Shown piece after piece: positions 12,811 through 29,826 of a stretch of DNA of 52,308 bases. A program made the translations under genes and the position numbers. The number at the start of each line of letters is the position of its first letter. Within the stretch, counting starts at the first letter, position 1. Below the pieces are notes generated by a model. That model was not told the DNA's origin and did not search any database. It worked only from the letters and a program-made list of their open reading frames with translations. Source of the DNA: Brevibacillus massiliensis (lineage in GTDB: Bacteria > Bacillota > Bacilli > Brevibacillales > Brevibacillaceae). The stretch covers positions 1 through 52,308 of the forward strand of contig NZ_HE978536.1 of NCBI RefSeq assembly GCF_000311785.1, written 5' to 3'.

Positions 12811-12914
12811 CCTCTCTTATCTGTCAAAGCGAGCGCGCTTTGCTGGAATTGGCACCAGATACCGGTTGCCGAGGCTTCACAGGGCCAGTCCCTCCACCTC
12901 TCTGGATAAGAGTA
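12811..12914 (-). promoter_or_regulatory. SAM-I (S-box) riboswitch
   Basis: The minus strand carries the full S-box core: P1 strand CTCTTATCCAGAGAGG, then GGTGGAGGGACTGGCCC, GAAGCCTCGGCAACC and the P3/P4 segment GGTGCCAATTCCAGC. The closing P1 strand is GACAGATAAGAGAG. High SAM would favour the downstream terminator and shut off metH and the two genes behind it. Confidence 0.96.
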
Positions 12915-17848: not shown

Positions 17849-18246
17849 GTCAAGAAATGCTGTAAGCCAGGTTCTGTCTCTTCTGTGCTGCAAACGGGTC
17901 TCCCCTCGCACAAGAAGCGGTAGTCATCTATCTATGGCAGCTCGAACTGCCATCTGTCCGTCCGTTCATTTCCTTCGGGACAGTTCCCCTACCAAAATTT
18001 GGGTTTCTCGCTCGCAGGGTTTACCTCGTTCCATCCTCCCTGTCGCCAGGGAAGCTGCGTTTCTGTGGCACTTTCAGCGTACTCGGGTCTACGTGAGAAC
18101 CCTTTTCGCGCCGTCAGCGAGATCGCTGTCTCGCTGCCCTAGTTTGCACTAGGTACGAACACTCCAGGCATCTCAGCCTGGGCGAGCCTGGACTTTCCTC
18201 TGCCGCCGATCGTGATGACCGCGACAGCGACTACCCGCATTTCTTG
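17849..18246 (-). ncRNA. rnpB: RNase P RNA, bacterial class B
   Basis: Catalytic RNA that matures tRNA 5' ends. The minus strand carries the universal GAGGAAAGTCCAGGCTC near the 5' end, and the 3' ACAGAACCTGGCTTACAG. P1 closes by CAAGAAATGC (5') with GCATTTCTTG (3'), which fixes the ends at about 18246 and 17849. Size near 400 nt and the Bacillus-style layout indicate class B. Open reading frames across it are spurious. Confidence 0.96.
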
Positions 18247-27376: not shown

Positions 27377-27874
27377 CTATCCACGGCTGCTTGACGACGA
27401 GGAACAGGCGCAGCGGCCCCAGCGGTGCCCGGAGTAGTGCGAACTGCTGTCCATGCCGTAGCACTTCGAGTAGTAATGATACATGCGGTCCCGATGGTGC
27501 ATGTAGTGTTTGTAGTACATCCGGTATTTTTTCGGATGGTGGCGGTGTTTGTGGCATTTGTATTCGTAGTACTGCATTTGGTCCATATGGAAGTAATACT
27601 TGTAAATGTGGATGTCTACCTCCACTTTCGGTTTCGGCATGACCGGCTTCTCGTGTTTGGGCGGTTTCATCGGCGGCGGCGGTGGCGGCGGATTGATCGG
27701 CCGCATCGGTTCTTTGAGATGTTTGGGCGGCGGGTTGGGAGGCAGATTGGGCGGTATGTTAGGTGGAATGTTAGGCGGTATATTGGGCGGCACCTTATGA
27801 TGTTTGGGCGGTGGCGGAGGCGTTACGGACTCCGGCGGCGGTACCGGTTTTTTATGTTCCACGCGATAACACAT
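27377..27874 (-). CDS. Pro-, His- and Tyr-rich low-complexity protein, probable spore coat
   Basis: 165 residues of extreme composition. The first half is proline-rich with the tandem unit PPNI (PPNIPPNIPPNIPPNLPPNP) and poly-Pro runs (NPPPPPPPMKPP). The second half is packed with Tyr, His, Lys and Met (HIYKYYFHMDQMQYYEY, YYKHYMHHRDRMYHYY) and ends with ACSSSSSSRG. Such Tyr/His/Lys-rich proteins are frequent among cross-linked Bacillales coat proteins, which suggests this role. No signal peptide. Start uncertain: ATG at 27874 abuts an AGAAAGG site, and GTG at 27862 sits 11 nt from it. Confidence 0.72.
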   Translation of the reverse strand: MCYRVEHKKPVPPPESVTPPPPPKHHKVPPNIPPNIPPNIPPNLPPNPPPKHLKEPMRPINPPPPPPPMKPPKHEKPVMPKPKVEVDIHIYKYYFHMDQMQYYEYKCHKHRHHPKKYRMYYKHYMHHRDRMYHYYSKCYGMDSSSHYSGHRWGRCACSSSSSSRG

Positions 27875-28081
27875 CCTTTCTGGTTATTAACACAGTACAT
27901 GGTATGACATTTACCCCTTGCAAGAAACGACACTTGCCTATTTATCACGAAATGCCTGTGCCCTTTTTTTTCGTTGAAGCAAATTCTGCATTTTATCCTA
28001 TCGACAAAAGGAAAACCAAGGCCGCCGCCTTCAACGACACCCGCCGTTCGAGAAAAACGGGCCGGACATCGCAAAAGGCCA

Positions 28082-28109
28082 TTGACGTCTGGAAAAGGTG
28101 TATTACAAT
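28082..28109 (+). promoter_or_regulatory. Sigma-A-like promoter ahead of hutH leader
   Basis: -35 TTGACG (28082-28087), 16-nt spacer, -10 TACAAT (28104-28109). The transcript would begin near 28116, about 217 nt before the hutH start. Confidence 0.6.
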
Positions 28110-28142
28110 GAAGGGTAAGATCTGAAAAGCGGGGAAGGAAAA

Positions 28143-28217
28143 ATGCATAGGAAGCGGCATACCATTGGTAAAAACCGCATATTGGCCCATGTTGAGAGGT
28201 TAGGAATTCGTTCCTAA
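28143..28217 (+). CDS. Leader ORF upstream of hutH (24 residues)
   Basis: MHRKRHTIGKNRILAHVERL... with four extra residues to a TAA at 28217. Its start lies close behind GGGGAAGGA. Composition is basic with three histidines. Its stop codon lies inside the 3' arm of the downstream terminator, so a ribosome finishing it would prevent the hairpin from forming. Whether it is translated is unknown. Confidence 0.4.
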   Translation: MHRKRHTIGKNRILAHVERLGIRS

Positions 28218-28230
28218 CCTCTTCTTTTTT
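28194..28230 (+). terminator. Attenuator-like terminator between promoter and hutH
   Basis: Perfect 11-bp stem (GAGGTTAGGAA with its complement) around TTCG, followed by CTTCTTTTTT. It lies about 80 nt after the putative start and 100 nt before hutH, so it would end leader transcripts unless overridden. Confidence 0.85.
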
Positions 28231-28332
28231 GGGTTCTCTGCTCTGCTAAAGCAATCAAGCCGCTTATAGACGCGGTACGGCGGACAAGTTTCCCTGCCGT
28301 TTAAGACAAGATAATGATGAGGAGGAATCAAG

Positions 28333-29826
28333 ATGATTACCTTGCAAGGAGATCGATTGACAATTGAGGAGGTCACCGCAGTCGCTCGGCAGCATGCGCA
28401 AATTGCGCTGACGAACACGGCGATCGCCCGTATCCAGCGTTCGCGCCGGATGGTGGAGAACATGGTAGATGAACAAAAGGTGGTCTACGGAATCACGACC
28501 GGCTTCGGCAAATTTTCCGATGTCCTCATCTCCCGTGATGATGTCAGCCGCCTGCAGGAAAACCTGATCATGAGCCATGCATGCGGAATGGGCGATCCTT
28601 ATCCGGAGGAAGTCGTCCGCGCCATGATGGTGCTGCGGGTGAACGCTCTGGCCAAAGGTTTCTCCGGCATCCGGCTGGAGACGATTCAACTGCTGGTGGA
28701 GATGTGCAATCGCGGGGTGCACCCGGTCATCCCGCAGCAAGGCTCGCTTGGCGCCAGCGGAGATTTGGCTCCGCTCGCCCACCTCGTCCTGGTCATGCTG
28801 GGAAAAGGTGCGGCAGTCCACAAAGGGAAACGCTTGCCCGGAGCCGATGCCATGCGTGCCGCCGGGCTGTCGCCCATTCGGCTCGAAGCCAAGGAGGGGC
28901 TCGCCTTGATCAACGGAACGCAGGCGATGACCGCGCTGCTCAGCCTGGCCCTGTACGACGCCAGGATCGCCGTGGAAAGCGCGGAAGTGATCGCCGCGAT
29001 GACCGTGGAGGCGCTGCGGGGAATCCCGAAGGCGTTTGATCCGCAGCTGCAGTCCGTCCGTTCCCATCCCGGCCAGCAAACGACCGCCAGCCGGCTGCTC
29101 TCACATCTGGAGGGAAGCACGCGGACCAGCGGACAGGGAGAGCTGCGCGTACAGGACGCCTACAGTCTGCGCTGCATCCCGCAGGTTCACGGTGCCGTCC
29201 GGGATACGCTGGAGCACGTCTGGCAAACCGTACAGCGTGAATGCAACAGTGTGACAGACAATCCCATTCTGTTTCCGGATACGGGTGACGTGATTTCAGG
29301 AGGCAATTTCCACGGTCAGCCGATGGCCTTCGCCGCTGATTTTCTGGCCATTGCCACAGCGGAGCTGGCCAATATTTCCGAGCGGCGGACGGAAAGACTG
29401 GTCAACCCGCAGCTAAGCGGACTGCCCGCCTTTCTGACAGAAAGAGGCGGCCTTCATTCCGGATTCATGATCGCACAGTACGCGGCTGCCTCGATCGTCT
29501 CCGAGAACAAGGTGCTGTGCCACCCCGCCTCGGTAGACTCCATCCCGTCTTCGGCCAATCAGGAGGATCACGTCAGCATGGGCACCACAGCCGCCCGCAA
29601 ACTGAGAACCGTGGTGGACAATGTATTCCGTGTACTGGCGATTGAGTATCTGGCAGCGGCACAGGCACTCGATTTCGGCGAGGGAACAATGGGTCGTGGC
29701 ACAGAGCGCGCCTACAAGGAACTGCGCCAGGTGATCAGCCGCCTCGACCACGACAGGGAAATGCATCCGGACTTAGCCAGGGCGGAAGAGCTGCTCAAGG
29801 CAGGGAAGCTGGCCTGGATGTTGTGA
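28333..29826 (+). CDS. hutH: Histidine ammonia-lyase
   Basis: First enzyme of histidine degradation, removing ammonia to give urocanate; cytosolic tetramer. 497 residues. The self-forming MIO cofactor triad Ala141-Ser142-Gly143 lies in GSLGASGDLAPL. Other active-site motifs are YGITTGFGKF near 54, GNFHGQPMAF and SANQEDHVSMG. ATG follows GAGGAGGAA. No other hut gene (hutU, hutI, hutG, hutP) is in the window. Expression may be controlled by the leader terminator upstream. Identity is firm, though PAL/TAL relatives share the fold. Confidence 0.94.
   Translation: MITLQGDRLTIEEVTAVARQHAQIALTNTAIARIQRSRRMVENMVDEQKVVYGITTGFGKFSDVLISRDDVSRLQENLIMSHACGMGDPYPEEVVRAMMVLRVNALAKGFSGIRLETIQLLVEMCNRGVHPVIPQQGSLGASGDLAPLAHLVLVMLGKGAAVHKGKRLPGADAMRAAGLSPIRLEAKEGLALINGTQAMTALLSLALYDARIAVESAEVIAAMTVEALRGIPKAFDPQLQSVRSHPGQQTTASRLLSHLEGSTRTSGQGELRVQDAYSLRCIPQVHGAVRDTLEHVWQTVQRECNSVTDNPILFPDTGDVISGGNFHGQPMAFAADFLAIATAELANISERRTERLVNPQLSGLPAFLTERGGLHSGFMIAQYAAASIVSENKVLCHPASVDSIPSSANQEDHVSMGTTAARKLRTVVDNVFRVLAIEYLAAAQALDFGEGTMGRGTERAYKELRQVISRLDHDREMHPDLARAEELLKAGKLAWML

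Follow-up and report, generated by a model that had tools for sequence, protein, structure and literature searches.

A histidine-containing leader ORF that runs into the terminator ahead of hutH in Brevibacillus massiliensis and its relatives: a putative ribosome-mediated attenuator of reversed polarity

The window analyzed in this study is a stretch of 52,308 nucleotides from Brevibacillus massiliensis. Its plus strand carries hutH (positions 28333 to 29826), which encodes histidine ammonia-lyase (TIGR01225, 718.6 bits against a cut-off of 539) and is presumed to be the controlled gene; the Shine-Dalgarno (SD) sequence of hutH lies at positions 28320 to 28326 of the same strand. A sequence-only reading had claimed a consensus-like promoter upstream of hutH, a 24-residue ORF with three histidines and its own ribosome site, and a terminator in whose downstream arm this ORF ends. 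All of these elements were found. The sigma-A-type promoter TTGACG-16-TACAAT (positions 28082 to 28109, plus strand) matches the consensus at 10 of 12 positions, and we infer that the leader transcript starts near position 28116. The SD sequence of the leader ORF, AGCGGGGAA (positions 28128 to 28136, plus strand), corresponds to the family consensus AAGYGRGGA, of which the core columns are at least 90% conserved. The leader ORF (positions 28143 to 28217, plus strand) encodes the 24-residue peptide MHRKRHTIGKNRILAHVERLGIRS, with His codons at the second, sixth and 16th positions. The intrinsic terminator (positions 28194 to 28230, plus strand) consists of a 13-bp stem (positions 28194 to 28223) with a UUCG loop, followed by the U tract CTTTTTT; its ΔG is -18.8, with a z-score of -4.6 against shuffled sequences. 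The UAA stop codon of the leader ORF (positions 28215 to 28217) falls in the 3′ arm of this stem. An automatic rule based on the SD sequence alone selected another start, the ATG at position 28108, whose frame stops 71 nt before the stem. This start was rejected, because its overlap with the -10 box excludes it from the leader transcript.

Downstream of the terminator, the element TTCTCTGCTCTGCTAAAG (positions 28234 to 28251, plus strand) is kept in Brevibacillaceae leaders. Elsewhere this element abuts the SD sequence of hutH; the window retains it even though about 70 nt lie between the two. No covariation links the element to the leader SD sequence, and sequences resembling (U)GCUAAAG are seen repeatedly in other families. 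The intervening region of about 70 nt (positions 28252 to 28319) is lineage-specific, is missing in most relatives and contains the small inverted repeats CCGC..GCGG and ACGGC..GCCGT. On the other side of the hutH promoter, a conserved block beginning with ACACAGTACATGGTATGACATTTACCC (positions 27885 to 27990) is present in many relatives. This block may be the promoter of a divergently oriented gene for a Pro/His/Tyr-rich protein (positions 27377 to 27874, minus strand). The Rfam search of the window detected a SAM riboswitch (positions 12814 to 12912) and a class B RNase P RNA (positions 17858 to 18242), both on the minus strand. At the hutH leader, no match to a known riboswitch, T-box or other RNA family was obtained in this search.

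In the B. subtilis hut operon, a terminator before the hut coding sequence is opened when histidine is present, and the sensor is HutP, a protein that binds NAG clusters. The gene is the same in B. massiliensis, whereas the leader here has a translated ORF (translation being inferred), no HutP and no NAG clusters. The sequence-only reading had noted the lack of hutP and of spaced NAG triplets at this locus. hutP was absent from the whole B. massiliensis genome in a search that detected the B. subtilis HutP control, and the window leader contains only one NAG-N4-NAG pair. Among 39 Brevibacillaceae genomes, Brevibacillus species included, hutP was absent from 38. The exception, G004, has two hutH genes, one (L003) with a putatively translated leader and the other (L039) near hutP; the leader of the latter contains many UAG repeats.

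The nearest named relatives of the window hutH are approximately 75 to 78% identical to it. The leader was found upstream of hutH in every examined Brevibacillaceae hutH locus of the same type. When whole genomes were searched with a covariance model built from 20 Brevibacillaceae leaders, high scores were obtained solely at hutH leaders, with one full-length high-scoring copy per genome in 38 of the 39 genomes. The only genome without the leader (G062) gave no hutH match. Elsewhere in the B. massiliensis genome, on other contigs, hutU and hutI occur together at two separate loci; hutH is unlinked to both, and no such leader lies directly upstream of hutU at either of them.

Comparison of the leader and its ORF across related species, proposed in the sequence-only reading, was performed with 32 distinct Brevibacillaceae leaders, in which the conserved AUG was picked by SD pairing alone. 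In all 32 leaders the ORF frame is uninterrupted up to the terminator, and its stop codon lies inside the hairpin or beyond; this does not hold for the other frames. The stop falls in the loop or the 3′ arm in 24 of the 32 leaders for the ORF frame, against one and two of the 32 in the other frames. The start of one leader (L003) was later moved because the resulting peptide aligns with the L019 peptide (GC.RH). This shift brings its stop from +17 to +3 and the count from 24/32 to 23/32, and the frame is still open to the terminator. Where the hairpin contains no stop, the frame continues through it, so that the terminator would be entered by a ribosome in every leader. After collapsing, 13 independent leaders with less than 75% identity remained, and in 12 of these the frame remains open as far as +6 or beyond, where a random-frame null predicts 5.7 (P about 2e-4). 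With a nucleotide-shuffle null, the product of the chances of openness over the 13 leaders is 5e-7. Both nulls assume independence of the leaders and use mononucleotide shuffles; the P values are therefore indicative only. The SD sequence, the AUG, the terminator and the downstream element are conserved, and the stretch between the AUG and the terminator drifts. The peptide sequence likewise drifts, while the ORF, its SD sequence and its extension into the terminator are maintained. The arrangement of the leader ORF is not due to chance. The comparison gives good support to translation into the terminator, although translation itself is inferred.

In the 13 independent leaders, 25 of the 231 residues in the ORF frame are His, against 7.9 expected from the composition. 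The other two frames hold seven and nine His (3 to 4%). None of 4000 shuffles reached the observed count, and the Fisher p-value is 2e-4. His alone is strongly enriched in these leaders; no other residue approaches its excess. Most of the His codons (23 of 25) sit 22 to 52 nt upstream of the terminator stem. Examples of His-rich peptides are MVHIHRHCHDNQIYIWPRG (L048, B. dissolubilis) and MHLTCRVIHVHHSIELLKGLGNHS (L051, B. migulae). Some Brevibacillus leaders, for example L047 and L027, have no His codon. Thus, gating by His codons is not universal, and His sensing may have been lost in such leaders. The link between the leader ORF and histidine, as originally proposed from three codons, is strengthened by the frame-specific enrichment; its basis is codon content and not a measurement.

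The earlier proposal to look for covariation in both stems was answered in part. Seven predicted pairs have changes on both sides among the 32 leaders, and all of them, except possibly weak end pairs, are in the terminator stem, which accordingly covaries; a competing stem was not detected. The consensus fold of the family leaders contains no helix upstream of the terminator. An antiterminator was not detected, as the 5′ arm of the terminator pairs with upstream sequence worse than with shuffled sequence (mean z +0.72). A helix sequestering the leader SD sequence looked attractive by eye and by minimum free energy in the brevis group and in families f18 and f36. Family-wide, this pairing was no better than in shuffled sequences (mean z +0.18), and the candidate was rejected. 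Pairing of the leader SD sequence with the downstream CUCUGCU element, seen by eye in the window, was also rejected, being broken in relatives without compensation.

We also analyzed hutH leaders from other families of Bacilli. The terminator and the start were assigned by a fixed rule, in which the start with the strongest SD energy was taken without regard to frame. Of the HutP-less outgroup leaders, 20 of 22 are open to the terminator, against 8.7 expected; in the other frames four and 11 are open. The HutP search covered most, but not all, genomes of the first outgroup set, and the unsearched genomes were counted as HutP-less for lack of a record. The enrichment of His was borderline in this set (P 0.05). 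A held-out outgroup set was then fetched and scored by the same rule. Here 12 of 15 leaders are open, against 5.3 expected, and 21 of 284 residues are His, against 9.5 expected (P below 1/3000). Among the control genomes that carry HutP, only one of nine leaders is open (Fisher p 4e-5). No such ORF was found in a few HutP-less leaders (e.g., L151 and L155).

Some individual outgroup leaders are striking. In the leader MMKNNTQPNNHCHLHRRFKEVR (G046/L160), the stop lies in the terminator loop. Leaders of families f36 and f48 with His-rich or QPHI-containing ORFs are L223 (G168, peptide MRNCIGSHLHGHRHLNTGQPHTRFFFQRD), L224 (G138), L228 (G327), L229 (G351) and L231 (G295). The nucleotide motif CAANCNCAUA recurs approximately 19 to 28 nt upstream of the stem in families f1, f18, f36 and f48. 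It contains CAU, and the majority of the frames, though not every one, translate it as Q[S/P]HI. On sequence grounds, this recurrence suggests common descent.

Taken together, the leader possesses the general elements of a ribosome-mediated attenuator, namely a leader ORF whose translation is inferred, an intrinsic terminator and, though not in every leader, enrichment in His. We consider it probable, in the absence of expression data, that the hutH leader acts as a transcription attenuator that is ribosome-mediated, gated by His codons and reversed in polarity. When charged tRNAHis is plentiful, the leading ribosome would cross the His codons and reach the terminator. There it would keep the hairpin from closing, and RNA polymerase would continue into hutH. 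Under histidine shortage, the ribosome would stall at the His codons, mostly 22 to 52 nt upstream of the stem, and leave the hairpin free; transcription would end, hutH would be off and the limiting amino acid would be spared. The leader would then do the job of HutP in B. subtilis. The blockage of the terminator, the gating by His and the direction of control are all inferred, the gating from codon enrichment. The original suggestion that a ribosome finishing the ORF would block the terminator, giving a switch linked to histidine use, thus has comparative support from the conserved run of the ORF into the terminator and from the frame-specific His codons.

Because no antiterminator was detected and the stop lies inside the hairpin, and because there are precedents, direct blockage by the ribosome is the simplest reading. 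In E. coli, when a stop codon was moved to 5 bp before a terminator, termination fell from about 90% to below 10% (PMC4824070). The terminator of B. subtilis tlrB (yxjB) is blocked by a ribosome that has nearly completed the leader ORF, and NusG pausing gives the time for this (PMC6851288). Without a pause, a terminator that lies in the first 100 bp of an ORF is repressed only poorly (PMC4824070), and B. subtilis RNA polymerase outruns ribosomes in runaway transcription (cited in PMC9226507). Since transcription is fast in Bacilli, the model needs a polymerase pause, and no pause site was identified at the leader.

Several other explanations have to be weighed. The ribosome might prevent termination without any sensing of histidine, in which case the ORF would couple hutH to general translation or growth rate, comparable to E. 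coli pyrBI and ampC, and the His codons would be incidental or inherited with the motif. Such a reading is compatible with the finding that an open frame up to the terminator is much more widespread among leaders than His codons are, with the several leaders that lack His and with the CAU in the recurrent motif CAANCNCAUA. Nevertheless, His is about three-fold enriched in the family set, in the ORF frame only, and is enriched in the held-out set too; moreover, 17 of the 25 His codons of the family set are not in a CATA or CACAT context. We therefore regard control without sensing as unlikely, but not negligible. The features of an ordinary his-type attenuator, in which ribosome stalling at His codons lets an antiterminator form and so prevents termination, are less well matched. 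An antiterminator was not detected, and the polarity would turn histidine breakdown on during histidine starvation. The leader gene and the downstream terminator of known biosynthetic attenuators are separated by more than 20 bp, which prevents a ribosome completing the leader from repressing termination (PMC4824070); here the stop is inside the terminator. Neither of the two marks of the his/trp type, an antiterminator helix and a stop well upstream of the terminator, is met by the hutH leader. A His-rich leader ORF and a terminator are present, and in Firmicutes comparable leaders occur at hisS/hisZ and his genes (PMC2965389 and PMC9413887), but this explanation is scarcely tenable.

An arrest peptide would act in the same direction as direct blockage: free histidine or urocanate would stall the ribosome at the stop codon, and the terminator would be kept open. 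The leaders with a 24-residue ORF (the window, L002, L016, L020, L031 and L051) share their end point, as this reading would have it. E. coli tnaC, a case of ligand-induced arrest that acts on Rho, has a conserved arrest peptide, whereas the hutH leader does not. The peptide sequences are poorly conserved, the C-terminal codons are in different frames among leaders (GLG..S versus GVRI), and the residues close to the stop codon do not show the conservation among leaders that would identify such a peptide. An arrest peptide is consequently very doubtful. We assign a similarly low likelihood to a structured RNA, either a riboswitch or the target of an unknown RNA-binding protein, that gates the leader SD sequence and uses the ORF to relay its signal to the terminator. 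The lack of an Rfam match, of an upstream helix in the consensus fold and of better-than-shuffled SD pairing all weigh against it, even though hairpins in the start region are predicted in families f18, f36 and f14 and in the brevis group (z down to -3) and the elements around the SD sequence and downstream of the terminator are conserved.

Direct blockage gated by His codons can be placed among the known leader-peptide systems. With the his/trp-type attenuators of E. coli and the His leaders of Firmicutes (PMC9413887 and PMC2965389), the hutH leader shares a short ORF with codons for the regulated amino acid, an intrinsic terminator and charged tRNA as the presumed signal. It differs from them in the stop inside the terminator, the lack of an antiterminator, the catabolic gene and the opposite polarity. 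E. coli pyrBI is similar in geometry: its leader ORF overlaps the terminator, a nearby ribosome prevents the hairpin, and the hutH leader shares the mark of this type, an ORF that enters the terminator or extends past it. pyrBI, however, senses UTP via polymerase pausing, whereas the hutH leader is enriched in His codons. In Bacilli, tlrB and bmrB also act through leader translation (PMC6851288 and PMC4191407). Their signal is an antibiotic-stalled ribosome and they control resistance genes, in contrast to the amino-acid supply and catabolism proposed here. Leader-peptide attenuation is known for histidine biosynthesis in Firmicutes, and the accessible parts of the two sources describing it (PMC9413887 and PMC2965389) do not describe a leader peptide at hut genes; our literature search found no paper on a leader peptide at hutH. 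The hutH leader therefore looks like a new variant of known ribosome-mediated attenuation, polarity-reversed, antiterminator-free and catabolic, that replaces HutP.

More broadly, the leader may represent a class of catabolic leader-peptide attenuators, in which the tRNA charged with the substrate drives the ribosome into the terminator and turns the degradation gene on. Such a class would take the place of HutP in many Bacilli families and might also act at other amino-acid-degrading genes; we see the case for it as evenly balanced. If this is true, it would explain how histidine is sensed in Bacilli without HutP, and the textbook attenuator could run backwards without any antiterminator. It would also offer a natural test of whether ribosomes keep pace with RNA polymerase in Gram-positive bacteria.
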